Source of the DNA: Butyrivibrio sp. NC3005
Lineage (GTDB): Bacteria > Bacillota > Clostridia > Lachnospirales > Lachnospiraceae
Reading direction: 5' to 3'
Assembly: GCF_000424545.1 (NCBI RefSeq)
Contig: NZ_KE384206.1
Span: forward strand, 66,022 to 130,021
Length of the DNA: 64,000 bases
In this document: positions 30,513-56,109 of the stretch, piece by piece
Layout of the letters: each line of letters starts with the position of its first letter
How positions within the stretch are numbered: position 1 is the stretch's first letter
Made by a program: the position numbers and the translations under genes
Notes under the pieces: model-generated
The model's database searches: none
What the model was told of the DNA's origin: nothing
What the model saw: the letters and a program-made list of their open reading frames with translations, nothing else

Positions 30513-33356
30513 ATGAAAAGAATAAGATTACTGTCAACCATTCTGGCAGTAGCTACTGTTGGTTCTTCTTTTTTGGGAGGACCAATTGTGTCTAGCTATG
30601 CAATGGAGGACAATTTAACACAACTTGAAAGGCAGGTTGAGGGTGAACCGCCATCAAGTGATGTGACACAGCTTTCTTCGAAAGATGAATTCGGGTCAAA
30701 CGAATCTTTGCAAGAGGTTGAAACAAATAATACCGGTCAAAGCGATGATTCTGGACAATCTAAAGATCAAAACAGTAACAGATCATTGGAAACAGAGAAT
30801 ATTCCAAATGAAGAGTTGCAAACAAAAAATGCTCAAGAAACAGAAATAGAAGGTAATCCTTCAATTGAAACTATAAATGGTGTCGAAAACGTAGAATTAC
30901 TTGATGATGAAACAGATTCTTCCAGAGAACAAGTTCAAGACAAAAAGGAATCTGATAAAACAAGCGAAGATATCAGATCATCAGAATCAGTAGATTTTTC
31001 AAAGAAACTTGATGGTGTCAAAATAACGATTCACGTGGACAAAGGAATTCTTCCACAAGATACAGCTGTTGACGTTATCAAAGTTGATCAGGAAACTGAA
31101 AAAAATATCAAAAAAGTAATTTCCAATAACGCAGGAAGCGAAACAACTATCGATAATACATATTCATATGATATTTTATTAAGATCTAAGGAATCAAAAA
31201 TAGAAAATGGTATGTTAAACGGAAATATTAACGTTACATTTGATAATGTTAATAAAAAGGATAGTCAAAAAGTAGATGTTTATAACGTAACTACTAAGAA
31301 CAGGGACGTTGAAAAAATAGAAAAAGTACCTTCATCTACATCAAAAAGGTCTGTTTCTTTCACTACAAAACAGTGTTCTACATTTACAATCACTGTACTA
31401 AGCAATAAAGAGAGGATGGAACCTTCAACTCTTGATCAAATCAGGCTCGATAAAGATCTTTTTTCATACGAGACAGAAGATGGAACTAGTATTAAAGATT
31501 TGATTTCAGAGAAAGATATCTTTGCCGCTGTAGTTTATGACAAAGACTATCTGCCAACAGATATTGCACCTGCAATTAAAGATTATCAATGCGTCAGCGC
31601 CAAAATCGGCAATGAAAAAATATATAAAATAAAAATTTCCAAACATAATAACAAAAATGAAATATCAGCAGAAAATCGCCAAGAAAGTGATTCTAATGAA
31701 AAAGTAAATAGTAATTTCTCTATTTTTTATACAACAAGTGAAAATGGAGAATTCAAAGAAATAGATGATTTGAGCTCTTTAAAATTTATATATAAGTCTT
31801 TAAAAAAAGATGAGCTCGATATGAACATGGACAAAATAGCTGGAGCATATATACGTATGCCAGCCAAAGTAAATGGACAATGGATTTATGAAGTTCCGGA
31901 AGTTACAGTTACAAGAGACGAGGGTCCTTACCAATCAATTCAAAATCCAACAGTTGCATATTTGACATTTTCCAGAAACGGAAGCTCAAGGGTTGCTAAT
32001 TGCATTACTAAAAACTATCAGTCATATGCAAAAGATGATTTGACAAAATACGTCAAGATAGACCGTACACTGGAAAAAAGTGGAATATACCATTCTACTC
32101 CGAAGAATCAAAAAGTTATAATAAATGTTGAAGGTAACAATATAACCTGCATTGTAAATAATGAAGTTTTCGTAAGTAATTTCAGTACTATTAAGTGGTA
32201 CGTGGTTAAAGCATCAGAAAAAGACTCTTATGGAAAGCCAAACGAAAAATGGAACATTGATGGAAGCCTTCAGTGGACTCACGTTGGTCGTCAGGAAGAT
32301 ATCGAGATTACAATAACTCCAGAAGATTTGACCTATGTTTATGACGGAAAGATTCATAATGGCTTTATGGTAAAGTCCATGAATGGACTTTTTACAAATG
32401 ACAAAGTGAGTGTAACTGCAGATAAATCTGATGAGTACATGAAAAAATTTAAGATTGCTGTTAGGCTTGAATCAAGAGATGTTAAAGATGTTGGAGAAAC
32501 TCCAATAACGGTTAAATATTGTGTATATATTGATTTGGATGATGGATTGCATCACATGCTAGCAACTAATATTCCAGGGAATAAAGGAACGTTAGATGAC
32601 TCTACTATGTATAATGTCACAGTAAAAGTTAATACAGCAAAGCTTGCTGTAACACCTGCTCCTATTAAGATTAAAACTGATTCTGCTGAGAAATACTATG
32701 ATGGGAAGCCTCTTACAGAAAAAGGTTATAAGGTAGAAGGTATTGTTAATAACGAAACTTACGGTTTTGAAACAACAGGAAGTCAAACAGAGGTTGGAAA
32801 ATCTGACAACACATATGAAATGACCTGGAAGAGTGATGATAATAACTTCACTGCGAAAAAAGAAAACTATGAACTGATTGAAGAAAAACTTGGCTTGTTA
32901 GAAGTAAAAAAGAAAGATGAAACTATTCCTAATACACCTTCAAAAGATACTCCAACTCCAAATACGCCGCCTCATAATGATAATCCAAGACCAAATGATC
33001 CTTCAGTCCACAATGATTCAACTCCACAGCCTACAACAGTAACACCAGATAAGCAGAAAACTGTCCAAAAGGTTGAACTCATAAATGGTATCAATGATGA
33101 AGATCAGGGAGAAATTTCTGGCAAACGAAGAAATAAGGAAAATGAAGGAAGTGTTCTTGGTCAAAAAAGAACAAAAAAACAAGAAGGAGACGTTCTTGGC
33201 GCTTCTAGAAAAAAAGCAAAAGAAGGCGAAGTTTTAGGTAAAAGAAGACCAAGAAGTACAGGAGATAACAGCAATCTTGCTCTAAATATTTGCATATTAA
33301 TGTTGGCAGCTGTTAGTATCAGTGTTATTGTACTTCGAAAAGTTAAAAAGAATTAA
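30513..33356 (+). CDS. Large secreted surface protein with MBG-like domains and VLG-x-x-R tail
   Basis: The 947-residue protein starts with a signal peptide (MKRIRLLSTILAVATVGSSF). A long Ser/Glu/Asp/Asn-rich, probably disordered region lies at about 35-165. Beta-domains of unknown type follow. Then come two MBG/adhesin-like repeats, recognised by VYDG (near 610) and YYDGKPL (near 725). Next is a Pro/Thr/Asn linker and four short basic repeats built on VLGxxR or SGKRR (about 860-918). RSTGD, a membrane helix (NLALNICILMLAAVSISV) and a KKN end complete it. The end looks like a variant wall-sorting or membrane-anchor signal. It is probably an adhesin; its ligand is unknown. A strong GGGAGGAGAT precedes the ATG. 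Confidence 0.8.
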   Translation: MKRIRLLSTILAVATVGSSFLGGPIVSSYAMEDNLTQLERQVEGEPPSSDVTQLSSKDEFGSNESLQEVETNNTGQSDDSGQSKDQNSNRSLETENIPNEELQTKNAQETEIEGNPSIETINGVENVELLDDETDSSREQVQDKKESDKTSEDIRSSESVDFSKKLDGVKITIHVDKGILPQDTAVDVIKVDQETEKNIKKVISNNAGSETTIDNTYSYDILLRSKESKIENGMLNGNINVTFDNVNKKDSQKVDVYNVTTKNRDVEKIEKVPSSTSKRSVSFTTKQCSTFTITVLSNKERMEPSTLDQIRLDKDLFSYETEDGTSIKDLISEKDIFAAVVYDKDYLPTDIAPAIKDYQCVSAKIGNEKIYKIKISKHNNKNEISAENRQESDSNEKVNSNFSIFYTTSENGEFKEIDDLSSLKFIYKSLKKDELDMNMDKIAGAYIRMPAKVNGQWIYEVPEVTVTRDEGPYQSIQNPTVAYLTFSRNGSSRVANCITKNYQSYAKDDLTKYVKIDRTLEKSGIYHSTPKNQKVIINVEGNNITCIVNNEVFVSNFSTIKWYVVKASEKDSYGKPNEKWNIDGSLQWTHVGRQEDIEITITPEDLTYVYDGKIHNGFMVKSMNGLFTNDKVSVTADKSDEYMKKFKIAVRLESRDVKDVGETPITVKYCVYIDLDDGLHHMLATNIPGNKGTLDDSTMYNVTVKVNTAKLAVTPAPIKIKTDSAEKYYDGKPLTEKGYKVEGIVNNETYGFETTGSQTEVGKSDNTYEMTWKSDDNNFTAKKENYELIEEKLGLLEVKKKDETIPNTPSKDTPTPNTPPHNDNPRPNDPSVHNDSTPQPTTVTPDKQKTVQKVELINGINDEDQGEISGKRRNKENEGSVLGQKRTKKQEGDVLGASRKKAKEGEVLGKRRPRSTGDNSNLALNICILMLAAVSISVIVLRKVKKN

Positions 33357-33407: not shown

Positions 33408-33455
33408 AAAAAAACAGCCCATACGCTTATTATCTAAACGTATAGGCTGTTTTTT
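33408..33455. terminator. Bidirectional terminator between convergent genes
   Basis: AAAAACAGCC and GGCTGTTTTT close a hairpin with A and T runs on either side. It separates the surface-protein gene (+) from a glycosyltransferase gene (-). Confidence 0.85.
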
Positions 33456-34407
33456 ATCTAAAAAGATGAAGTAAAAAAGCACTAGTGTAATAAGTAACAG
33501 GATTCATAGCACGCATAAAAATGGCATTTTTTCCTTTTTGCGTTCTTAAATAAGCATTCTCTTTCCACTTTGGAAAATTAAGATTTAGAAATAACCAATT
33601 TGATTGTATTGCTCGTTTTCTGTCACTCTTATCTGGAATTCTAGACATTCTACTAAGCGAACTGCACAATAGAATTCTAGTAAACAAATACTCAAGTGAA
33701 TCTCTATATTCATCATATAAACCACGATTTTTGTAAAAAAACATAATGTGATTTAAAATATCCAAAATTTCCATAGTCTTTAGGGTTTGATAATTATTTA
33801 TAGATGAGGAACGTTGAATATAATGATAAGAAGCATTATCTACATAAGAAATTTTTCTTATATATGGAACTAACATAGAAAAAAATTCAACATCTTCATA
33901 AATAAATCCCTTAGGAAATATTATCTGTAATTGTTCAAACCATTCTCTTTTATAGATTTTATTCCAAACAACAGATCTACCTACTCTAAGTAGCTTCTGC
34001 TTATCGGTTATTTTTTCACCTATTTCAGTATCTTCATGATCTTCCCATGTATGATGAAGGTTACATTCGACAATGTCTGCATCGTCAAAGATAGCTTTGT
34101 TATATAAGTTTTCGTACATGTCAAGATCAACATAATCATCTGAATCTACAAAACCTATGTACTCGCCCTTGCAGAATGGAATAGCATAGTTGCGGGCATC
34201 AGATAAACCACCATTTTTTTTGTTTAAGATTTGAATTTTGTCAGATTTAGTGGCATAATCTTCTAGAATGCTTAAAGAGTTATCAGTAGAGCCATCATTC
34301 ACTGCAAGAATTTCGATATCATCTAAGGTTTGATGGATAAGTGATTCCATGCATCGACTTAAATACTTCTCAACGTTATAGACTGGTACAATAATACTTA
34401 TTTTCAT
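33454..34407 (-). CDS. Family 2 glycosyltransferase (minus strand)
   Basis: The 317-residue protein is a GT-A fold, GT2 enzyme: ISIIVPVYNVEKYLSRCMESL at the N-terminus, LAVNDGSTDNS in the nucleotide-sugar site, and FVDSDDYVD as the DxD metal motif. No membrane helix is visible, so it probably acts at the inner face of the membrane. It is the only GT2 gene on this strand in the island, and it lies just before the lasso-peptide genes, transcribed away from them. Donor and acceptor cannot be predicted. Confidence 0.88.
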   Translation of the reverse strand: MKISIIVPVYNVEKYLSRCMESLIHQTLDDIEILAVNDGSTDNSLSILEDYATKSDKIQILNKKNGGLSDARNYAIPFCKGEYIGFVDSDDYVDLDMYENLYNKAIFDDADIVECNLHHTWEDHEDTEIGEKITDKQKLLRVGRSVVWNKIYKREWFEQLQIIFPKGFIYEDVEFFSMLVPYIRKISYVDNASYHYIQRSSSINNYQTLKTMEILDILNHIMFFYKNRGLYDEYRDSLEYLFTRILLCSSLSRMSRIPDKSDRKRAIQSNWLFLNLNFPKWKENAYLRTQKGKNAIFMRAMNPVTYYTSAFLLHLFR

Positions 34408-34627: not shown

Positions 34628-35065
34628 ATGAAAAATATTGACATAATTTCTTTTTTTAGAGATAATGGAGAAAAGGTTGTGACAATAAAATCCTACCTTT
34701 ATTCATTCTATTACAGATTTATCGTAAAGCACACTTCCATGAAAAAGCTTAAAAAAAGATTAGGCAAAGAGGGAGAAGAATCTCCTTATGAGGAAACTCC
34801 GGAAAATCTTCAACTTGCAAATCTTTATGCTTTTCATGTTAATCGTATAACTGAGCATCTTCCATGGAATGCAAAATGTTTTGTGAGAGCGTTGACTTTA
34901 CGAAAATTGTTGTCAGAAAAAAATATCTCTTCAACAATTTATCTCGGGATAAAAAATTCGGAGCATGGACTACAAGCTCATGCCTGGCTTCGCTGCGGAA
35001 ACACTTTTATTACAGGAGGATATGGTAAAGGCTATACCAAAGTAGCAACGTTTTCAAACCTTTGA
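34628..35065 (+). CDS. Lasso peptide B2 protein (transglutaminase-like leader peptidase)
   Basis: The 145-residue protein fits the lasso B2 family, a Cys protease with a transglutaminase fold that removes the leader peptide. Cys84 lies in AKCFVRALTLRKLL and His118 in LQAHAWLRCG, the two core catalytic positions, followed by ITGGYG. Length and motif spacing match B2 proteins. No membrane segment is seen. It is separated from the cyclase gene by a secreted transglutaminase-like gene and lies in the same direction as the precursors. Together with the cyclase, RRE, kinase and ABC exporter in the next 8 kb, the lasso assignment is secure in my view. Confidence 0.85.
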   Translation: MKNIDIISFFRDNGEKVVTIKSYLYSFYYRFIVKHTSMKKLKKRLGKEGEESPYEETPENLQLANLYAFHVNRITEHLPWNAKCFVRALTLRKLLSEKNISSTIYLGIKNSEHGLQAHAWLRCGNTFITGGYGKGYTKVATFSNL

Positions 35066-35212
35066 TATTCCATATTTCTCTCCGATATATTTTATGGGTT
35101 AAGTGCACTATGTATCCTAAATTATTTAATGATACACAAGAAGAATAAATGTTAATATCACACTTTGTTATATTAACAACGTTACGCTGTTCATTAAAAA
35201 TCGGAGGTCAAT

Positions 35213-36994
35213 ATGCATTTTCAGAAGAAAAAAGTAACACGAGGCACTTTTAAGATTCTATCAATCATTTTAACATTATCTATCTTTGTTCAAGCATTTT
35301 TGTTTAGAGGCTTTGAATCAAAGGCTATATCTAATTCTGACAAAACAGAATTGGTAAATATGTTTACAAAAATGCTTACAACTGCTGATTATTCTATGCA
35401 TGATGTATCCAAGTACAACCTGTATTTCCATGAATTAAAGGAACTATATGATAAGGCAGGCAGTAGCGGAGATGCACTTCTTGCCAAATACTGTTATTCT
35501 TATCTAGGGCTTGGTGATGAAAAACTTCCAAATAGTAAAGTTAAAACGGTTTATTTAAAAACATATGGGAGAGCTCCCGTAGACTTTAAGTCAAATTTTT
35601 CTAAAATCAAACAGAATACAAATCGTATTCTTTCTGGAATACAAAATGATATGACAGAGGCAGATAAGGCATTATATTTGCATGATGAACTTGTAAAATG
35701 CACTGTATATGCCAACTCTAACAATTACTGTTATATGGGCGGAGGTCCTCTAATCTTCGGAACAGGAATATGCAGTGGATACAATAATGCGTATACACTG
35801 CTTTTAAAGCTAGCAGGTATCGAGAGTTTTGAAGTTTATAATTCAAATCATAGTTGGAATTACGTTAAGATTGATAATAAATGGTATAACGTAGATGCCA
35901 CATGGGACGATACTGGATATTCGAAAGGAACAGGAAATGGAATTTATTTCAGACATTTCTTTTTACGTTCCGATAAGGAATTTCAGACGGATAAGCTCAA
36001 AAAGCATACAGGATATAAAGTCACTCCTTTAGATGGTTCAACAGCTGTAGCAGACTCAACTATCTATTCTGATAGTGTATTGCATGATGTTGAGAATCAA
36101 ATCGCATTTTATAAAGGATACTGGTATTTCGCAAACGGTAAAAATATTGAAAAAGCCAAACTCACATCTTCAACATCAGAAGTTGTATATACAGCAGCTT
36201 CTAATGTTGAAATAGTTGACATAAAAGATGGTGTTTTGACTTACCGTTGCAATAGCGAAAGTTCAACAATTAACCTCAATGGTTCAGAATCCAATGTTCC
36301 AAAACCAGAGCCAAAACCTGAACCAAAACCAGAGCCGGAGCCTTCTATTGTAACTAAAAAGACTGTTGCCAGCTATTATTTATTAAAAAAAGGTGGAAGC
36401 CGTACAAATTACAAAGCTTCAAACTATATTTCACTTGGAAAAGGCTATATAACAAAAGAAGAGACTATTAAAAATGATTCAGATAAAATTCTGAAGAATT
36501 TAGCTCAGATTCCTGATTATTCAAAATATTTAAATCAAAATGAATATGTTGAATGGTATTCAATTAAAAAAGAAGGCGATGGTTGGCATGTTGATGGCGA
36601 AATCAAAGAAAATAAACAAGATGATAACCAAAAGCCTTCAGATCCAGAGCCTTCAAATCCGGAGCCTAAACCTGCAGATCCAGAACCAGAAACACCTACA
36701 CCTGTAAATCCGGAGCCTCAGAAACCATCATCAACTGCAACTAAAGCTATGTTTTATCTCGTAAAACAAGGCGGAAGTCGTACAAATTATAAAGCATCAA
36801 ATTACATTTCGCTTGGAAGTGGTACTATTTTAACACCAACCACAATAAAAAATGATGAGGAAGCAATTCTTAAAAACTTAGGTGAAATACCATCTTATAG
36901 TAAATACATACCAGATGGATACAGAGTTCAATGGTATTCCATAAAAAAAGAAAATGATGGTTGGCATGTTGATGGTGAGATTATCCAAAAGTAG
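35213..36994 (+). CDS. Secreted transglutaminase-like protein with two C-terminal repeats
   Basis: The 593-residue protein has a signal peptide (about 1-37). A transglutaminase-like cysteine protease domain (about 120-270) follows: Cys in GTGICSGYNNAYTLLLKL, His in SNHSWNYVK and Asp in NVDATWDD form the triad. A Pro/Glu/Lys-rich linker comes next. Then two related repeats of about 85 residues, each with GGSRTNYKASNYISLG and ending DGWHVDGEI, are separated by another Pro-rich linker. There is no wall-sorting signal. The repeats may bind polymer. It lies between the lasso B2 gene and the cyclase gene, but a role in lasso biosynthesis is only inferred from place. CGGAGG precedes the ATG. Confidence 0.82.
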   Translation: MHFQKKKVTRGTFKILSIILTLSIFVQAFLFRGFESKAISNSDKTELVNMFTKMLTTADYSMHDVSKYNLYFHELKELYDKAGSSGDALLAKYCYSYLGLGDEKLPNSKVKTVYLKTYGRAPVDFKSNFSKIKQNTNRILSGIQNDMTEADKALYLHDELVKCTVYANSNNYCYMGGGPLIFGTGICSGYNNAYTLLLKLAGIESFEVYNSNHSWNYVKIDNKWYNVDATWDDTGYSKGTGNGIYFRHFFLRSDKEFQTDKLKKHTGYKVTPLDGSTAVADSTIYSDSVLHDVENQIAFYKGYWYFANGKNIEKAKLTSSTSEVVYTAASNVEIVDIKDGVLTYRCNSESSTINLNGSESNVPKPEPKPEPKPEPEPSIVTKKTVASYYLLKKGGSRTNYKASNYISLGKGYITKEETIKNDSDKILKNLAQIPDYSKYLNQNEYVEWYSIKKEGDGWHVDGEIKENKQDDNQKPSDPEPSNPEPKPADPEPETPTPVNPEPQKPSSTATKAMFYLVKQGGSRTNYKASNYISLGSGTILTPTTIKNDEEAILKNLGEIPSYSKYIPDGYRVQWYSIKKENDGWHVDGEIIQK

Positions 36995-37035
36995 CATTAC
37001 CAATAAGTTTATGAATAGGTAAAGCAATAACGATT

Positions 37036-37064
37036 TTGACGTGGCTGATTTCTTGTGCTAGTAT
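37036..37064 (+). promoter_or_regulatory. Promoter before the lasso cyclase gene
   Basis: TTGACG (37036-37041), a 17-base spacer and TAGTAT (37059-37064) make a good sigma-A promoter. Its transcript would start near 37071 and run into the hairpin at 37100 before reaching the cyclase ATG at 37169. Confidence 0.6.
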
Positions 37065-37099
37065 TTACATGTGTAATTATTTAGTACAGAAATATATTT

Positions 37100-37141
37100 A
37101 TGGAAAGTGTATTTCATATTGAATGCACTTTCCATATTTTT
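37100..37141 (+). terminator. Terminator or attenuator hairpin before the lasso cyclase
   Basis: ATGGAAAGTG and CACTTTCCAT pair and are followed by ATTTTTGATT. The hairpin ends about 28 bases before the cyclase start and lies after the promoter above, so it could end transcription early (attenuation) or serve as the terminator of the upstream gene. Confidence 0.6.
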
Positions 37142-37168
37142 GATTAGTTTTAAGAAAGAGGTTTTGTT

Positions 37169-39061
37169 ATGCCGATAATGTGGGGAGCGGTAGATTTTGA
37201 TGGAAAGGAGATTTCTGACGAATCTATCAGAATTTTTAAAAATTCGATTACTGATATTCCGCTTGATAATCTGACTGAGTACAGGAAAAAAAATATCTAT
37301 ATGGGTAATGGAATGCAGTATATCACTCGTGAAAGCCATTATGAACAATTACCATATGTTTCCGAAAACGGTTACTATGGAAATGCTGTAATGATGCTAG
37401 ATAATCGAAATGAAATAAACAAGATTGCTCAGATTCATGATGACGATTTGCAAGAAACAGGAGATGCAGAAATTGCATTTAAAGCACTTGAGAAAAAAGG
37501 TATATCTTGTGTTTATAACATGTTGGGAGCTTTTTCAATATGTTGGTATGATGACAATTCAAAAAAAATCTATTTGGCAGATGACGGAGTCGGAAATGTA
37601 TGTATCTATTATCGAGTGATTGGAAGTACTATTTATTATTCTTCTTTGATTGAACCACTAAAACAACTTGACGATTTTAAATATAATGAAAAATGGCTTG
37701 CAACTACGAATTCCATTCTTGGGCCGATTATGATAAATGAAATCTATGAAACGCCAATTAAAGACATTTATCGTGTTGCTCCTGCTGAGTATATAACTTT
37801 TGACGGAGCCAAGGTAGAAAATATCAGATATTATGATCCACTAAAAAATGGAAAAAAAATAAAATTCAAAACTGATAAAGAATATGCAGACGAATTTAGA
37901 AGGATTTATTTTAAGGCTATAAAAGATGTTTTAAGAGCAGATGGCGAGACTGCAATGCTTCTTAGTGGTGGTTATGATTCAACAAGTGTTTGCGCTGTTG
38001 CTGCGCCATATTTAAAAAAATCTGGTAAGAAAATTTTCACCTACACCTCTGTTCCTGATAAAAGCCTTAATGTATCAAATGGATTTGGTTTTTCAGATGA
38101 GTCAGAGAGTGTAAAAAAGACTGCTTCGATTTTTGGAAATCTTGATACCAGTTTTATAGATCTACATGGAATAGGATTATGGGATATTCATGATGAAATG
38201 ATGAACGTGATTGAAATGCCATACAAATCTCTCGAAAATCTCGTCTGGATTTTCAAATCAATGAAAGAAAGCAGAAAACAAAACTGTAGGATTCTTTTAA
38301 CGGGAGAATATGGAAACACAACAGTTTCATTCGGAGACTATGCTTTGTATGTTAACGAACTTTGGAATAAAAGACATTATTTTAAAGCACTTAAAGAGGC
38401 CAAAATTTTTTGTCGAAAAATGGGTTATTCCTATAAATACTTCCGAAAATGTTTATTAAAATCACGTCTAAAGCTTGAGAAAAACAATCTTGTTTTTTCA
38501 GAAGATAAAAACTATATTGAACACGATATCCTAAAAAAATATAGTATCACGGATACGATTTTAAAATATTACAAAGACTGTAAGGACATGGGATATGATT
38601 ATAATAAGTTTCTCGAAATGGAAAATCGCCGTCTTTCACAAAGACAAATTGGAGAACTTACAAGCAAGTTTTCAATTTACTCTGGAGTAATGATGCGCGA
38701 TCCAACAAAAGACAGAAGACTTATTGAGTTTTGTATGAACCTTCCTCTTGAACAGTATCAAAAAGGTGAGGAGTTCAGAAGACTTATTAGCGTTTACATG
38801 AAGGATCTTATTCCGGAACATATACTTAATCAATCCTTTAAGGGACGACAAAGTGCAGATATGTATTCAAGAATACGAAAAGAATGGGGCAAAGCAAGTA
38901 TTCAAATGCTCTCGATAATCAATGCTAATCCGACAAGTGCTATTTTGAACCTTGATAAGATAAAAAAAGACATTGAACGTGGACAAAAAGACGAGCTTAA
39001 AGACAATGAATTTATAGCACTAATTAACGCTGTAATGATTCATGAGTACATGACAGCTTGA
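37169..39061 (+). CDS. Lasso peptide macrolactam synthetase (asparagine-synthetase-like, C protein)
   Basis: The 630-residue protein is an asparagine synthetase B homologue. Residues 1 to about 200 correspond to the glutaminase half, but there is no Cys at position 2 (it begins MPIM), so glutamine is not used. The synthetase half has the pyrophosphate loop LLSGGYDSTSV at about 264-274. Lasso cyclases of this type activate an Asp or Glu side chain with ATP and join it to the core's first amine to close the ring. The neighbours (precursors, B1, B2, exporter) fit that role. The ATG follows AAGAAAGAGG. A direct repeat and the first precursor gene follow. Confidence 0.88.
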   Translation: MPIMWGAVDFDGKEISDESIRIFKNSITDIPLDNLTEYRKKNIYMGNGMQYITRESHYEQLPYVSENGYYGNAVMMLDNRNEINKIAQIHDDDLQETGDAEIAFKALEKKGISCVYNMLGAFSICWYDDNSKKIYLADDGVGNVCIYYRVIGSTIYYSSLIEPLKQLDDFKYNEKWLATTNSILGPIMINEIYETPIKDIYRVAPAEYITFDGAKVENIRYYDPLKNGKKIKFKTDKEYADEFRRIYFKAIKDVLRADGETAMLLSGGYDSTSVCAVAAPYLKKSGKKIFTYTSVPDKSLNVSNGFGFSDESESVKKTASIFGNLDTSFIDLHGIGLWDIHDEMMNVIEMPYKSLENLVWIFKSMKESRKQNCRILLTGEYGNTTVSFGDYALYVNELWNKRHYFKALKEAKIFCRKMGYSYKYFRKCLLKSRLKLEKNNLVFSEDKNYIEHDILKKYSITDTILKYYKDCKDMGYDYNKFLEMENRRLSQRQIGELTSKFSIYSGVMMRDPTKDRRLIEFCMNLPLEQYQKGEEFRRLISVYMKDLIPEHILNQSFKGRQSADMYSRIRKEWGKASIQMLSIINANPTSAILNLDKIKKDIERGQKDELKDNEFIALINAVMIHEYMTA

Positions 39062-39162
39062 TGAGACAAAAGCAACAATCTATCAATGTTGTTAGATTGT
39101 TTGAAATCATAAAAGATAAGTATTATCATAAACTCATCAAATGAAGAAAGGGGGACACAATA

Positions 39163-39321
39163 ATGAAGTGGAATGCACCAGTTATGGAAGAGCTTAACAT
39201 CAATGCTACAGCAAATGGTATGGCTCCAGACGAAAACTTTGACGGAGATTGGGTTGAAATCAACGGAAAATGGTATCGCCCAGGTAATGGCTCTGTAAGC
39301 GGCGGAGAAATCGCTCAGTAA
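39163..39321 (+). CDS. Lasso peptide precursor, copy 1 (52 residues)
   Basis: The 52-residue peptide begins MKWNAPVMEELNINATANG and continues with a short acidic stretch (PDENFDGDW), GKWYRPGNG and ends SGGEIAQ. W3xxP6 resembles the YxxP leader signature that the RRE protein recognises in lasso precursors. Thr16 aligns with the Thr found at the -2 position before the core. The leader therefore ends near residue 17 and the core would be about 35 residues, longer than usual. Several core starts are possible (see findings). A strong GAAGAAAGGGGG ribosome site lies before the ATG. It encodes the same peptide as copy 2. Confidence 0.85.
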   Translation: MKWNAPVMEELNINATANGMAPDENFDGDWVEINGKWYRPGNGSVSGGEIAQ

Positions 39322-39347
39322 TTTTAATTCATAGAGATGAATTATTG

Positions 39348-39392
39348 TTCCGTTCATGTTATTTTTATAAATAGCATGGACGGAATTTTTTT
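39348..39392 (+). terminator. Terminator of precursor 1
   Basis: TTCCGTTCATG and CATGGACGGAA pair with one U-G wobble, followed by seven T. The same hairpin follows precursor 2. Confidence 0.85.
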
Positions 39393-39423
39393 AGCAAATA
39401 ATATTTTAATCAAGGTGAACGCT

Positions 39424-40335
39424 ATGTATAAGTATTATATTTTTGGTTACAACATTGAATCTGATTATGAAATTGAAGGTGCAGTCCAAACCCATTTTGA
39501 TACTCCGGATATAACTGTTAAATACCATTCTTTTCCTGATGAATGTATTCTTTCCAAATCAGAAGAAAACATTGTATATAGAAACATAACATCCGATGAA
39601 GTCAGTCTAGCATTTCCTGAATTTGGATTCTTTAAAATAACAAAGAACGTTATCGAATATAGAATAGTTGATGGAATTGAAAACAGCTGGTTTAGTCAGA
39701 TAATTCTTTGTTGGTTACTTGTATTTAATATGGTCATTAGAAAAGATTTGCTAATGCACGGAAGTTGCATTTCCTATGGTGATAATGCCTTTATAATAAG
39801 CGGTGAATCCGGGGCTGGAAAGTCTTCAATAACAGATGCATTGTTAAATATGGACTATGGTTTTTTGTCTGATGACATTGTTAGAATTTGTCCTATTGAT
39901 AGCAACATGAATGCAATTGCATCTTTCCCTCTTAGAAAACTATGTGGCGATACAATGGATTTTAATAATCTGAACAAAAATCTTTATAAACAAGTTTTAG
40001 GAGATGAAAGAGATAAGTTTTTTATAGATGCAAAGGATATTTACATAAATGATCCAAAACCCGTAAAAGCACTTTTTCATTTGGATATTTCTGATGAAAT
40101 TACCGAACCTGTTGTAAATGAAATTACTGGTGGAGAAAAAATAAAGTACATTTTAAAAAATCTTTTCCAAGGACAATCTTCTAATGAAGCTGGTAATTCT
40201 ATAGATTTATTTATGAAGTGTTCCAAACTCGGAGCTCAAATCAGTGTTTTAAAAATAACAAGACCAAGAGAGGGTTATACTATAACTCAAAGAGCTAAAA
40301 TGATGGACCAGATTATAAAGAGAATCTGCAAATAA
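39424..40335 (+). CDS. HPr-kinase-like lasso peptide kinase
   Basis: The 303-residue protein resembles HPr kinase/phosphorylase, with a P-loop GESGAGKSS at residues 127-135 and LSDDIVRI after it. In paeninodin-type clusters such a protein phosphorylates the lasso precursor, in the best-studied case on the C-terminal Ser. Here the precursors end in Gln or His, not Ser, so the target residue, if any, would be Ser44 or Ser46. ATG 39424 follows AAGGTGAAC and begins MYKYYIFG. A longer reading from 39337 overlaps the precursor terminator and is unlikely. The gene is bracketed by the two direct repeats. Confidence 0.8.
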   Translation: MYKYYIFGYNIESDYEIEGAVQTHFDTPDITVKYHSFPDECILSKSEENIVYRNITSDEVSLAFPEFGFFKITKNVIEYRIVDGIENSWFSQIILCWLLVFNMVIRKDLLMHGSCISYGDNAFIISGESGAGKSSITDALLNMDYGFLSDDIVRICPIDSNMNAIASFPLRKLCGDTMDFNNLNKNLYKQVLGDERDKFFIDAKDIYINDPKPVKALFHLDISDEITEPVVNEITGGEKIKYILKNLFQGQSSNEAGNSIDLFMKCSKLGAQISVLKITRPREGYTITQRAKMMDQIIKRICK

Positions 40336-40460
40336 ACTCGCATTATTTAGCAATTTCTTATTACTAAATACAGTTTTCTATCAATGTTGTTAGATTGTTT
40401 GAAATCATAAAAGATAAGTATTATCATAAACTTATCAAATGAAGAAAGGGGGACACAATA

Positions 40461-40619
40461 ATGAAGTGGAATGCACCAGTTATGGAAGAGCTTAACATCA
40501 ATGCTACAGCAAATGGTATGGCTCCAGACGAAAACTTTGACGGAGATTGGGTTGAAATCAACGGAAAATGGTATCGCCCAGGTAATGGCTCTGTAAGCGG
40601 TGGAGAAATCGCTCAGTAA
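40461..40619 (+). CDS. Lasso peptide precursor, copy 2 (same peptide as copy 1)
   Basis: The predicted 52-residue peptide is identical to copy 1, with only a silent change seen in the gene. It carries the same GAAGAAAGGGGG ribosome site and the same terminator. Three conserved blocks upstream, ATCAATnTTGTTAG, TTTGA and GTATTATCAT, also appear before copies 1 and 3 at constant spacing, so each gene probably has its own promoter (a TTTGA-containing -35 with TATTAT as -10 is the best guess). Confidence 0.85.
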   Translation: MKWNAPVMEELNINATANGMAPDENFDGDWVEINGKWYRPGNGSVSGGEIAQ

Positions 40620-40645
40620 TTTTAATTCATAGAGATGAATTATTG

Positions 40646-40690
40646 TTCCGTTCATGTTATTTTTATAAATAGCATGGACGGAATTTTTTT
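40646..40690 (+). terminator. Terminator of precursor 2
   Basis: This is the same stem and T run as the terminator of precursor 1. Confidence 0.85.
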
Positions 40691-40811
40691 GCTGACGAGT
40701 AAGCATAATTTCATTAAAAAACATTTTTCTATCAATTTTGTTAGAATATTTGATGTTTAGGAAATATAGTATTATCATAGCTTCATCGCTTGAAGAAAGG
40801 GGGACACAATA

Positions 40812-40970
40812 ATGAAGTGGAATGCACCAGTTATGGAAGAGCTTAACATCAATGCTACAGCAAATGGTATGGCTCCAGACGAAAACTTTGACGGAGATTG
40901 GGTTGAAATCAACGGAAGATGGTATCGCCCAGGTAACGGATCTATTAGCGGTAGCGAAACTGCTCACTAA
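40812..40970 (+). CDS. Lasso peptide precursor, copy 3 (variant)
   Basis: The 52-residue peptide differs from copies 1 and 2 at five positions: Lys36Arg, Val45Ile, Gly48Ser, Ile50Thr and Gln52His. All five are in the predicted core tail, while the leader and the first 18 residues of the core are unchanged. The upstream region keeps the ribosome site and the conserved promoter-like blocks but is otherwise diverged. The terminator differs from that of copies 1 and 2. It is an older duplicate and would give a second product. Confidence 0.85.
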   Translation: MKWNAPVMEELNINATANGMAPDENFDGDWVEINGRWYRPGNGSISGSETAH

Positions 40971-40997
40971 TTTATAACTTATACATATGAATAAGTT

Positions 40998-41033
40998 AAT
41001 AGCTCATGAGATACATCTCATGAGCTATTTTTG
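40998..41033 (+). terminator. Terminator of precursor 3
   Basis: AATAGCTCATGAG and CTCATGAGCTATT pair around a six-base loop and are followed by TTTTG. Confidence 0.85.
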
Positions 41034-41071
41034 TAATTATTAATAGAGTTTTATAAATAACGCAGGTCATA

Positions 41072-41112
41072 AAAAAAGCTGTTAAGAAGCCTAAACTCCT
41101 AACAGCTTTTTG
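41072..41112. terminator. Terminator of the minus-strand PqqD gene (bidirectional)
   Basis: AAAAGCTGTTA and TAACAGCTTTT form a stem with A and T runs on both sides. Read on the minus strand it follows the PqqD-like gene. Confidence 0.75.
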
Positions 41113-41128
41113 TTTATGTGCAATTATT

Positions 41129-41401
41129 TTAAGAAAGAGTAATGAATTTATTACTTTCTAATTGATTCAAAAATTTTTCAACATCATCTTTACATGTTGC
41201 TTCGTCAACTTCATAGATATTCTCGAGTTTTCCAAGCAAATTACCAAAAGAAATAGGAGACTGGATACTATCCCAAATATCAACAGCCGTTCCTTTCAGC
41301 ATAAAGTATTTTCCCGTTTCAAAATCAATCATTACCTTATCACCAGTAATATCAGTTACATCTAGTTTCTTAATCAGTGTAATAATTGTTTCTTTAGTCA
41401 T
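41129..41401 (-). CDS. Lasso peptide B1 protein (PqqD-like RRE)
   Basis: The 90-residue protein is a stand-alone RiPP recognition element of the PqqD fold. It shows the expected order: VTDITGDKVMIDFETGKYFMLKGTAVDIWDSIQ, a beta-sheet followed by a winged-helix part, with TGKYFMLKGTA as the diagnostic stretch. In lasso systems B1 binds the leader and delivers it to B2. It is encoded on the minus strand while the rest of the cluster is on the plus strand, with its own GGGGG ribosome site and terminator. Its start faces the ABC exporter gene across 177 bases, so the two promoters diverge. Confidence 0.85.
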   Translation of the reverse strand: MTKETIITLIKKLDVTDITGDKVMIDFETGKYFMLKGTAVDIWDSIQSPISFGNLLGKLENIYEVDEATCKDDVEKFLNQLESNKFITLS

Positions 41402-41578
41402 ACATACAACCCCCTTAAAACTTCATAAAAATAACTGCATACTAAATTCTACCACAAGATTATAATATTTCAACTTATTTTTTATAATAAAAAAAGAATA
41501 AGTAATTGATTTATATTCCGAAATGTGATAAATTATAGCAGTATTTTGTCTGTGGTAGCAGACAAAGGGGAGAAAGTT

Positions 41579-43303
41579 ATGGTTGGAAAAATAAAAAAAT
41601 GTGTTTGTTTATTCAAAACTAACAAAAAAAGGGGATATAACTATTTTCGATGGCTTCTGAAATATACAAGTCCTTATAAGTGGAAAATAGCCTTTCTAAT
41701 GGCAATTCAAATAGGACTAACGTATTTGAGCATTTATTATGCGATTATTTCCCAAAGAGTTGTAGACAGTGCCGGAAAAGGCCAAATTAATACTGTATTG
41801 TTTGCTCTATATGCAATGTTAGCTATTTCTCAACTTTTGATTATCGAGGGCACAAATTTAATGTCAGCGATGCTCAATGAGAAATACAGTTTTGGAATCA
41901 GAAAGCAAATTTATGAAAAAATCTTGCATTCGACATGGGAAGACTCTCAAAGATTTCATACTGGAGATATGATGACTCGAATGACAAGTGATGCTGGCAA
42001 TATTGCTACTGGAATGGTTTCCACAGTACCTCACATCATTATTCTTGTGGTTCAGTTGGTATCATTCTTCTTCACACTGTTTCATTATTCTCACTTTCTT
42101 GCGGTTGCAGCTTTGTTCTTGACTCCATTCGGACTACTTTTTTCATGGATACTAGGCAAAAAGCTAAAAAAGCTTCAGGTCAAAGTTCAGGAAACAGAGA
42201 CAAACTACAGATCTTTTATCCAAGAAAGTTTAGCAAACCTGCTTGTAGTTAAAGCTTTTTCAGCAGAGGATGACTTTTCAGGCAAACTTACAGTGCTTCG
42301 AAATGAAAGATTTTTTTGGGTTTGGAAGAAAAATATTGTATCGTCAGCAGCAACAGTTGTATTAAATGGTACTTTTAGTATAGGAATGATGATTGCATTT
42401 ATCTATTCAGCAATCGGTATTTCAAAGGGCACGATTACATTTGGTATATTGACACTGACAATGACTTTATTTGGTCGAATTCAGACTCCTATTATGGGTA
42501 TTGCTAGTCAGTTTTCACAGCTTGCAACAATTTTTGCCTCTGCAGGAAGAGTAATAGAAATCCAGAATTTTCACAACGAGTCAATTGGAAATGAGCCAAA
42601 TCTAAAAGGCTCAATAGGTGTTCAATTGAACAATGTAAGCTTTTCCTACAAAGGAAAAGAATCCTCCAAAGAGGTTCTATCAAATGTAAATATTGATATT
42701 GAACCAGGAGAATCCATTGCCATAGTTGGAAAATCAGGTGTTGGTAAAACAACACTTGTTAGACTTATTATGCATTTCTTAGAGCCTTTACATGGAAATA
42801 TAGTTTTCTATGATTGCTTTAAGAATTCATATAAATCAACAGGAACAATTAGAAAAAGAATTTCATATGTTCCACAAGGAAACACTCTTTTCTCTGGTAC
42901 AATTCTTGAAAACCTTAAGCTTGCAAATAAGAATGCATCAATGAAAGAGATTGACGAAGCTTTACACATTGCCGTTTGTGATGAATTTATTTCAAAACTT
43001 CCAAACGGGCTAAATACAAAAATCGGGGAAAAAGGGAGTGGTTTATCAGAAGGTCAAGCACAGCGAATTGCTATTGCGAGAGCTCTTTTGAGAAAATCTC
43101 CTTTTATAGTTTTTGATGAAGCTACGTCTGCTCTTGATGAGGATACAGAAATCGAGTTATTAAAGAATCTAAATAGCCTTGTTGATAAACCGACTTGTCT
43201 GCTTATCACACATAGAAAAGCGGTTCTTAAATATTGTAATAAAGAAATTTGTATCAAAGAAGGGAAGGTCTCATTATCAGAAGTTGAAGAGATTTCTGCA
43301 TAA
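41579..43303 (+). CDS. ABC exporter, membrane-ATPase fusion (lasso D protein)
   Basis: The 574-residue protein has six predicted membrane helices in the first 320 residues, followed by an ATPase domain. Walker A is GKSGVGKTT at about 384-392, the signature is LSEGQAQR near 489, Walker B with the catalytic Glu is FIVFDEATSALD, and the switch His is in ITHRK. It has no C39 peptidase domain, which fits lasso exporters, whose leaders are cut by B2. ATG 41579 follows AAAGGGGAG; a longer in-frame reading from 41525 has no ribosome site. It probably exports the mature peptide and so gives self-protection. Confidence 0.85.
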   Translation: MVGKIKKCVCLFKTNKKRGYNYFRWLLKYTSPYKWKIAFLMAIQIGLTYLSIYYAIISQRVVDSAGKGQINTVLFALYAMLAISQLLIIEGTNLMSAMLNEKYSFGIRKQIYEKILHSTWEDSQRFHTGDMMTRMTSDAGNIATGMVSTVPHIIILVVQLVSFFFTLFHYSHFLAVAALFLTPFGLLFSWILGKKLKKLQVKVQETETNYRSFIQESLANLLVVKAFSAEDDFSGKLTVLRNERFFWVWKKNIVSSAATVVLNGTFSIGMMIAFIYSAIGISKGTITFGILTLTMTLFGRIQTPIMGIASQFSQLATIFASAGRVIEIQNFHNESIGNEPNLKGSIGVQLNNVSFSYKGKESSKEVLSNVNIDIEPGESIAIVGKSGVGKTTLVRLIMHFLEPLHGNIVFYDCFKNSYKSTGTIRKRISYVPQGNTLFSGTILENLKLANKNASMKEIDEALHIAVCDEFISKLPNGLNTKIGEKGSGLSEGQAQRIAIARALLRKSPFIVFDEATSALDEDTEIELLKNLNSLVDKPTCLLITHRKAVLKYCNKEICIKEGKVSLSEVEEISA

Positions 43304-54825: not shown

Positions 54826-56109
54826 ATGGAAAAACATGATATTGCAAAACCGGTTATTACAGAAAATACGGTTGATAATTTTCTGAAATTGCTAGGAATG
54901 GGAATGCAAAAAGGTTATGATCAAAATAAGATTAATGAAATAATAAAGCAAGAGGGGTTAAATAATCTTTTTTGTATTGCTGATTCAAATAATGTTATGC
55001 CGTTTTTATATAAAACTGTTGCAGCATACAATGGTACAGAGGATGACAAAAAACTTTTGACATTGTGGAAAAATCACACTCAAAAAACAATGTTCACAGA
55101 GATGTCTAAATCAATGCAAATTTTCAAATTATCCAAGAAAGCAAAAGAAGAAAATCTTACCTTTGTTTTCTTTAAGGGGATAGTATTAGCATCTTTGTAT
55201 CCTCAATCATTTGAAAGACCTGGATGTGATTCAGATATTTTTGTCTATGAGGAAGAAAAGGAAGATGCTATAAAACTTCTTAATAATATGGATTACAGGT
55301 TGATAGAAGATGAGTGTAAAGAGAACGTATTGGTTTTTCTCCATGAAAATCCAAAACATGTAATTGAACTTCACACAAGATTATGGGAAGATTTTACAGG
55401 GCCTAAAATTGAAAAGTTAAAGGAAATGGATTTAACAAACAGAGATTCACTGGTGAATATATGTGCATGTAATATTCACATAACCACACTCGGTTACGAA
55501 GAACATTTGATTTATCAAATGTTTCATGTTATAAAGCATTTTTCGCTTGATGGAATTGGAATGCGCTATTTACTTGATATAACCTATTATATCAATGCCT
55601 ACTATGCCAAAATTGATTGGGAAAACTTTTGGAAAAAGATTGAATATTTAGGCTATTCATGTTTTTGTGATAGTTTTTTCAAGATTTGCATTGATTATTT
55701 AGGTATGAACCCAAAAATTCTTGCAAACAGAAATGTAAGAGTTACAAAGGAAATCGAACAATTCAAGCTAGATCTTTTGTATGGCGGACATACAATTAAA
55801 AAGGATGCTGATTGGCAAATAATGGGCGCGATGGCTCCCTATTTTACAGGAAATGCCAAAGTAGCATCATCTGAAGTTTCTAGGAAAATTCAGATGATTT
55901 TTCCTAGCGTTAAAAGTATACCTTCTTGCTATACTTATGTTAAAAAGCATCCGTGCCTTTTGCCATTTGCTTGGATACAAAGAGATTTTAAATTTTTATG
56001 GAAGTATATTTTCCATCATGATCAAGTCTATTCTGTCAAAGAAAAGATTAATGTTGGTGAAAACAGATTATCTTTGATAAAAAATCTAGGTTTGAATGCA
56101 AACGATTGA
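54826..56109 (+). CDS. Nucleotidyltransferase-like protein (NTP_transf_5 type)
   Basis: The 427-residue protein matches the family of predicted nucleotidyltransferases often found in paeninodin-like lasso and other RiPP clusters. The conserved core is FFKGIVLASLYPQSFERPGCDSD, with the acidic pair Asp135 and Asp137. HVIELHTRLW follows near residue 185. The fold is expected to transfer a nucleotide, but no activity is established to my knowledge. Its place inside the polysaccharide locus is odd, 11 kb after the lasso exporter. It could serve either pathway. AAGGGGAAAG precedes the ATG. Confidence 0.75.
   Translation: MEKHDIAKPVITENTVDNFLKLLGMGMQKGYDQNKINEIIKQEGLNNLFCIADSNNVMPFLYKTVAAYNGTEDDKKLLTLWKNHTQKTMFTEMSKSMQIFKLSKKAKEENLTFVFFKGIVLASLYPQSFERPGCDSDIFVYEEEKEDAIKLLNNMDYRLIEDECKENVLVFLHENPKHVIELHTRLWEDFTGPKIEKLKEMDLTNRDSLVNICACNIHITTLGYEEHLIYQMFHVIKHFSLDGIGMRYLLDITYYINAYYAKIDWENFWKKIEYLGYSCFCDSFFKICIDYLGMNPKILANRNVRVTKEIEQFKLDLLYGGHTIKKDADWQIMGAMAPYFTGNAKVASSEVSRKIQMIFPSVKSIPSCYTYVKKHPCLLPFAWIQRDFKFLWKYIFHHDQVYSVKEKINVGENRLSLIKNLGLNAND

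Follow-up and report, generated by a model that had tools for sequence, protein, structure and literature searches.

Lasso peptide clusters of the Bacillota frequently come with kinases and lie in capsule loci, which raises the question of the reason. Here we consider a lasso peptide cluster of the rumen bacterium Butyrivibrio sp. NC3005 (Lachnospiraceae), located within a 64 kb stretch of contig NZ_KE384206.1 (positions 66,022 to 130,021 of the forward strand), hereafter the window, to which all coordinates refer; its genome is G000 in the comparisons. The new element is that one branch of lasso clusters, including this one, appears from its sequences to keep its own secreted-looking transglutaminase-like protein (TG). 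Between 33.4 and 43.3 kb the gene order is GT2 glycosyltransferase (-), leader peptidase B2 (+), TG (+), macrolactam synthetase or cyclase C (+), precursor A1, kinase K, precursors A2 and A3, the PqqD-like peptide recognition element (RRE) protein B1 (-) and the ABC exporter D (+). Papers are cited by accession, and what is said of them concerns the parts of their text that were available.

The cluster for paeninodin in Paenibacillus dendritiformis shares with the window B2, B1, a cyclase and a kinase of the His-Lys-Asp-Asp kind, but its kinase targets a C-terminal serine, whereas the window precursors end in Gln or His and carry an inner Ser-Gly (PMC9266682). The known lasso kinases PadeK, ThcoK and SyanK modify the C-terminal serine (PMC9266682). 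Pseudomycoidin combines, as the window does, a kinase (PsmK) and a nucleotidyltransferase (PsmN) in one lasso system, and PsmN reportedly attaches one or two hexoses to the phosphoserine (PMC9266682); the window goes beyond this with a GT2 and TG. The linear polyphosphorylated peptides (LPPs) have in common with the window an RRE, an HprK-like kinase, an NTP transferase and an exporter, but differ in having no macrolactam cyclase and in using another leader motif and another peptidase; their kinase LppK modifies S3 of its linear peptide (PMC13381572).

The cluster itself is already in print. Table 3 of a 2020 survey lists lasso precursors and predicted cores for Butyrivibrio sp. NC3005 (PMC7533575), and that entry comprises three precursors identical to those of the window (A1 and A2 being #1 and #2) with the same predicted cores, the same ring from G1 to D9 and the same Thr at position -3. 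Genes for an HPr kinase, PqqD, a nucleotidyltransferase and a GT2 were reported to co-occur in rumen clusters, and a conserved serine in the C-terminal region was remarked upon (PMC7533575). TG and its repeat, described below, are not mentioned in the available text of that survey, where transglutaminases come up in connection with LasB or the superfamily. For the Hungate1000 collection a 2026 survey gives 21 lasso clusters, most of them in Butyrivibrio, and the available main text does not name NC3005 (PMC13289728). A preliminary description of this DNA had called lasso clusters of gut and rumen Lachnospiraceae little studied, which is only partly right given the precursors and cores printed in 2020 (PMC7533575) and the clusters surveyed in 2026 (PMC13289728).

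Association of a transglutaminase-like protein with one group of lasso cyclases

TG (35213-36994, + strand) is encoded between B2 and C. Its core matches PF01841 with 28.1 bits (cut-off 23), and the residues C187, H213 and D228 are invariant in all eight aligned TG sequences. The N-terminal stretch looks like a signal peptide and has low confidence in the AlphaFold model (mean pLDDT 76.4, pTM 0.54 for the whole protein). In a Foldseek search the fold came nearest to transglutaminase-like proteins; with the best match, TglA of Streptococcus pyogenes (9crn; E 4.5e-7, TM-score 0.29 by query length), TG has a transglutaminase-like fold in common at only 14% identity. Nothing was found on TglA as a Streptococcus pyogenes transglutaminase in the openly licensed literature. 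At its C-terminus TG carries two repeats of 83 residues (36365-36616 and 36743-36991, both + strand), which are 69% identical to each other.

The TG core was also found in the lasso loci of G071 (L024/L057) and G015 (L028) within the genus, in that of G438 (L053/L074) from another genus, and in those of Falcatimonas sp. MSJ-15 (L055/L058), RGIG6987 (L059) and Lachnospiraceae YSD2013 (L060). On a cyclase tree of 40 rows TG is present in all seven rows on one side of a branch and in none of the other 33, counts that refer to rows and not to independent events, as L059 nearly duplicates L060 and as short stretches occur among the other rows. This branch has a support of 95/82 and is present in 94% of the bootstrap trees, and the distribution of TG demands a single change on the tree as compared to a mean of 6.5 for shuffled labels, with none of 500 shuffles reaching so low a value. 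The TG group is a clade under the midpoint root as drawn; L057, L058 and L062 were omitted from the tree as copies or near copies, and of the 17 loci from a contig scan with profile A2, L057-L064 are included among the relatives while L065-L073 (22-25% identity, mostly partial) lie outside. TG adjoins C, B2 or both in all seven rows, and in L055 one TG is located beside B2 and another one gene from C.

Just three TG-like places exist in the whole window genome at E 0.001. Among 79 genomes of the genus a match at E 1e-15 was obtained in 11: it is full and strong in G000 and G071, it is the lasso gene in G015, and in the other eight the cores are weaker and lie away from lasso cyclase places. 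As far as sequences can tell, the link between TG and the lasso cluster is well supported. Judged by titles and the beginnings of abstracts, a lasso partner of the TG type was not found in the openly licensed literature.

Searched as a single sequence, the 83-residue repeat was found in 3 of 396 genomes of the family at E 1e-8 (G000, G120 and G438), with all 11 matches in lasso loci, and in 3 of 79 genomes of the genus at E 1e-5, namely in the lasso loci of G000 and G071 and, weakly (5.4e-6), elsewhere in G068. As a profile it matched in 6 of the 79 genus genomes and in 5 of 392 genomes at E 1e-5, with at least 120 bits for the copies in the lasso loci of G000 and G071 and at most 35.5 for every other match; the single-sequence searches are the fairer test. 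Together these scores suggest that the repeat has distant kin in other proteins, and that its close form is confined to lasso loci in the genomes searched. A structure model of the repeat (copy 2, pLDDT 93.3) had no match better than E 1.5 in the PDB.

As a side observation, the locus of Falcatimonas sp. MSJ-15 (L055/L058) holds three precursors, two proteins with the TG core and one protein with two repeats and no TG core.

It is conceivable that TG serves self-protection, by binding or degrading the exported peptide close to the producer. Its triad resembles that of a cysteine protease, its repeats could bind a peptide, and in Falcatimonas several precursors are accompanied by several TG-related proteins. 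The window, however, has three precursors for one TG, so that the two numbers are not simply linked, lasso loci other than those of the TG group manage without TG, and the available literature passages name no immunity protein of this kind. We therefore regard self-protection as rather unlikely, though worth keeping in mind. Somewhat along the other extreme, TG could be an unrelated surface protein that came to lie between B2 and C by chance, in what is otherwise a plain phosphorylated cluster of the paeninodin kind. The weaker TG cores away from lasso cyclase places in 8 of the 79 genus genomes, and a terminator-like hairpin that separates TG from C (37099-37136, + strand), would fit such a chance arrangement. 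The strict partition of TG on the cyclase tree, the strong repeat matches seen only in lasso loci and the scarcity of TG-like places in the genome all speak against it, and we consider coincidence unlikely.

Precursors, kinase and the position of the tail serine

The precursor leader is MKWNAPVMEELNINATAN with the motif WNAP. Compared with the reported pattern [Y/W]xxPx[L/V/I/A/F/Y] (PMC13381572), the W and P of WNAPVM agree and the final Met falls outside the set. The predicted core of A1 (39163-39321, + strand) is GMAPDENFDGDWVEINGKWYRPGNGSVSGGEIAQ; the protein of A2 (40461-40619, + strand) is identical to that of A1, and the core of A3 (40812-40970, + strand) ends in GNGSISGSETAH. All three have T-3, G1 and D9, and the combination of T-3, G1 and D or E at position 9 occurs in 33 of 48 precursor-like open reading frames of the fetched loci, a set that includes the window three, near copies and one chance frame (L033) and that lacks two of the three L055 precursors. 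Thr at -3 is also found in the lasso precursors of the 2020 survey (PMC7533575), whereas another account places the leader Thr at the penultimate position (PMC10368454). The paeninodin family model NF033524 matched the leader part only, with 17.5, 17.5 and 17.4 bits (cut-off 27).

Precursor copies 1 and 2 form a repeat that has 2 mismatches in 300 nucleotides. Over these 300 nucleotides copy 3 is 75% alike, and its reading frame differs from that of A1 at 11 of 159 nucleotides. Each copy has a promoter-like site in the same register (39101-39129, 40399-40427 and 40750-40778, + strand, with 10, 10 and 9 of 12 consensus positions, respectively) and is followed by a terminator-like hairpin (39347-39386, 40645-40684 and 40998-41029, + strand), and from this it is probable that each precursor has its own short transcript. 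In the window overall, promoter-like hits are near chance (57 as compared to 49.5 in shuffled sequences), and terminator-like hits number 9 as compared to 4.0, some of the nine overlapping or lying inside reading frames.

The core stretch DWVEINGKWYRPGNGS (within 39163-39318 and 40461-40616) resembles a choline-binding or cell-wall-binding repeat, and L024 and L055 have comparable stretches in which PG comes after W or Y. That the tail is a choline-binding repeat was rejected as a claim, as the match to Pfam Choline_bind_1 (E 0.034) is under the cut-off and limited to two of the three precursors.

The HprK-like kinase gene is enclosed between precursor copies. Its reading frame is listed from 39337, a position bordering on the terminator-like hairpin that follows precursor 1; an ATG at 39424, preceded by AAGGTG, is the likelier start (39424-40335, + strand). 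The match to PF07475 (26 bits) is under the cut-off of 33.3, and a PDB search gave no match up to E 0.1. The His, Lys and two Asp, matched by reading the motif given in PMC9266682, are intact in the window kinase; of 45 aligned kinases from lasso loci, all keep H, K and the first D, and 43 keep the second D as well. A lasso peptide cluster with a tailoring-type kinase, as proposed in the preliminary description, is in this respect well supported, and the suggestion that the product is perhaps phosphorylated appears reasonable. The term paeninodin-like held for the kinase residues and failed for the substrate, since the C-terminal Ser is absent from all three precursors, which end in Gln (A1 and A2) and His (A3), and the family model stayed under its cut-off. 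The Ser of the inner Ser-Gly is the seventh residue from the precursor end.

The position of this serine can be compared among relatives. Among 43 tails from the window and related loci, Ser is the last residue in 13 and Ser-Gly occurs in 27; Ser is either terminal or placed before Gly in 35 of the 43, as compared to a mean of 13.7 in shuffled tails, and none of 5000 shuffles was as high, which is not a clean probability because the tails are related sequences. The bare occurrence of a Ser among the last 12 residues shows only weak enrichment (35 of 43 as compared to 29.9; 170 of 5000 shuffles reach this), and it is therefore the place of the Ser, and not its presence, that stands out. The tails were cut roughly, some beginning within the ring. 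Dropped from the count were precursor 2 (identical to 1), two tails of L059 and one of L062, which nearly duplicate those of L060 and L061, further the third tail of L054 and the first of L046, as well as L050's glycine-rich tail and chance reading frames, while two L055 precursors were added; among the real tails dropped, those of L046, L050, L054 and L062 would fit the pattern and the two of L059 would not. In TG loci one to three further residues often come after the last Ser. The tail pattern would fit naturally with an acceptor Ser that can lie inside the tail, or with the removal of a short follower. An internal serine in the context of lasso peptides or HPr kinases was not found in the openly licensed literature at the level of titles and abstracts.

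Nucleotidyltransferase and glycosyltransferase

The window encodes a nucleotidyltransferase of the NTP_transf_5 family (54826-56109, + strand; PF14907, 126.3 bits, cut-off 31.2), which is the single match in the whole genome. PsmN is presumably a member of the same family. Homologues are present in 28 of 47 other fetched stretches, a count that leaves out the copies L057 and L058 and in which two loci are counted in two pieces. The GT2 glycosyltransferase (33454-34407, - strand; PF00535, 120.8 bits) is transcribed divergently from B2. It has 20 matches at E <=1e-60 in 20 of the 79 genus genomes; scores above 400 bits are reached in six (G000, G001, G002, G011, G015 and G071), all within lasso loci and adjoining B1 or B2, and the next match in the genus has 269 bits. 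A further glycosyltransferase of this score class (469 bits) adjoins B2 in the L053 locus of G438, a genome from another genus. The combination of kinase and nucleotidyltransferase recalls pseudomycoidin, and by this analogy an extension of the phosphate with sugar is proposed.

The cluster is accordingly larger than 34628-43303. All genes named in the preliminary description lie inside that extent; the GT2 at 33454 and, at a distance, the NTP_transf_5 gene at 54826 lie outside it, and its list of partners lacked these two as well as TG, which is inside.

Core lasso machinery and genomic setting

The gene set first described for the region, i.e., B2, a cyclase, three precursors, a kinase, B1 and an exporter, was recovered in full at its place, along with the finer details given for it: C84 and H118 in B2, a cyclase without Cys2 and an ABC exporter free of a peptidase. 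Lasso-family profiles had been expected to match the cyclase and B2. This was so for B2 (34628-35065, + strand), which exceeds the cut-offs of NF033537 (63.7 bits, cut-off 33) and PF13471 (62.9 bits, cut-off 26). The cyclase (37169-39061, + strand; N-terminus MPIMWG) passes PF00733 (75.4 bits, cut-off 21) and matches the lasso cyclase model NF033535 with E 5.6e-52, but its 177 bits are under the curated cut-off of 525; its profile matched seven PDB entries, asparagine synthetases and relatives. The Cys and His of B2 are kept in all 40 aligned B2 rows, copies included. A defect of B2 through a missing catalytic Asp was considered and rejected, as the aligned stretch of the relatives is, by eye, also without a conserved Asp after the His, and a PDB search with B2 gave just a chance match to a ribosomal protein (E 0.29). 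B1 (41129-41401, - strand) passes PF05402 (61.5 bits, cut-off 23.4) and is under the cut-off of NF033536 (69.7 bits, cut-off 80); its best PDB match is 9x90_B, a chaperone of the lasso PqqD family and a solved lasso RRE (E 5.9e-12). The exporter D (41525-43303, + strand) consists of ABC_membrane (PF00664, 113.8 bits) and ABC_tran (PF00005, 99.3 bits), with no peptidase domain among the Pfam matches listed (25 of 26).

Because B2 passes its cut-offs, C and B1 pass those of Pfam, B1 matches a solved lasso RRE and the precursors carry the expected motifs, the cluster is very likely a lasso peptide cluster, with a lasso as its predicted product. A cyclic or linear phosphopeptide similar to the LPPs would be an alternative to a threaded lasso, and LPP clusters do contain an RRE, a kinase, an NTP transferase and an exporter, often co-localize with lasso clusters and are in some cases found in capsule loci (PMC13381572). 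LPPs are however made without a cyclase and with a signal-peptidase-like enzyme, and their leader motif is YxxPxVLxHQ (PMC13381572), whereas the window has both an asparagine-synthetase-domain cyclase and B2 and its leaders have WxxP. An LPP identity was rejected on these grounds, and a product that is not threaded is very improbable. A degenerate or silent cluster, for which the curated cut-offs missed by the cyclase, B1 and the precursors might be taken to speak, is the least probable, with all frames open, catalytic residues intact, near-identical precursor copies and a terminator-like hairpin after each.

Lasso clusters look concentrated in the Butyrivibrio genus set: a lasso cyclase was found in 19 of 79 genus genomes, and a B2 of the lasso kind above its cut-off in 13 of 396 genomes of the family and in 9 of 392 of the class, in searches that differed in probes and limits. 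A separate cyclase clade (100/100; L031, L032, L036, L043 and L051) forms an odd lasso-like class. Its precursors lack Gly1 and have an aromatic start followed by DG(G/A)Y(I/L)GDG(K/H/E)(I/V)SG, with Pro-rich long tails in four of the five and a terminal Ser in all five. Besides a normal lasso set, the L050 locus holds a second, distant cyclase (L050:1059-3370), with a glycine-rich precursor, WWGGGPGYDGRGGG..., next to it.

Downstream of D an AAA_31 protein and several glycosyltransferases are encoded, five of the ten proteins scanned there being AAA_31 or glycosyltransferase-type, and the polysaccharide island named as the setting in the preliminary description is therefore likely right. Atypical lasso clusters within capsule loci of Bacilli were reported in 2026 (PMC13381572). 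On the other side the cluster adjoins a 947-residue surface-like protein (30513-33356) with an anchor-like C-terminus and repeated VLGxxR motifs; a scan of 20 lasso stretches from the genus gave no homologue of it at E 0.001.

Proposed pathway and significance

The gene content, the motifs, the co-occurrence and the association of TG with one branch of cyclases are read directly from the sequences, and from the known families we infer leader cutting, cyclisation and phosphorylation. B1 would bind the leader via the WNAP motif, B2 would cleave the leader, and C would close a nine-residue ring from Gly1 to Asp9, through which the 25-residue tail would be threaded; the product would be exported by D. 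The kinase most likely phosphorylates a Ser near, and not at, the tail end, i.e., the Ser of SVSG or SISG. Sugar would then probably be added to the phosphate by NTP_transf_5 and the dedicated GT2, as in pseudomycoidin. If TG is secreted, it may act on or bind the exported peptide, by trimming its tail, by fixing it to surface material or by holding it via the repeats. The choice of Ser, the addition of sugar and the secretion and action of TG are the conjectural steps; the explanation as a whole, from lasso and kinase to sugar extension and a TG acting or binding outside the cell, is nevertheless one we consider likely.

Several observations weigh against it. The cyclase, B1 and the precursors are under the curated NCBI cut-offs and the kinase is under that of Pfam, and kinase and NTP_transf_5 are assigned by homology only. 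NTP_transf_5 is located 11.5 kb from the exporter, across glycosyltransferase and exopolysaccharide-type genes. The hairpin between TG and C means that a shared transcript is not required, and the core of A3, which contains neither Lys nor Gln, speaks against an obligatory Gln-Lys crosslink by TG. The TG of L028 is without repeats, and weak distant relatives of the repeat occur in other large proteins, one of them on another contig of the lasso-bearing G071; the high profile scores of the lasso copies are partly a matter of construction, as the profile was built from them. The tail pattern was defined once these very tails had been inspected and lacks a control set free of kinases, and the precursors of TG loci pass the tail test in 4 of 10 cases as compared to 31 of 33 elsewhere, the chance figures for TG-locus comparisons treating genomes as independent.

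The inner Ser-Gly pattern predicts that these kinases need no C-terminal Ser. It is tempting to speculate further that one branch of the lasso clusters of Lachnospiraceae has a dedicated extracellular enzyme, a secreted TG, with a small repeat domain whose fold has no counterpart in the PDB, that processes the exported phospho-glycosylated peptide or links it covalently to the surface of the producer, although this is a tentative idea that may well prove wrong. If true, the peptide would stay attached to the surface and be produced along with the exopolysaccharide encoded nearby, instead of diffusing freely as an antibiotic. A secreted-looking protein that accompanies one group of cyclases provides a concrete experimental handle on the question why lasso clusters of the Bacillota so often carry kinases and sit in capsule loci.

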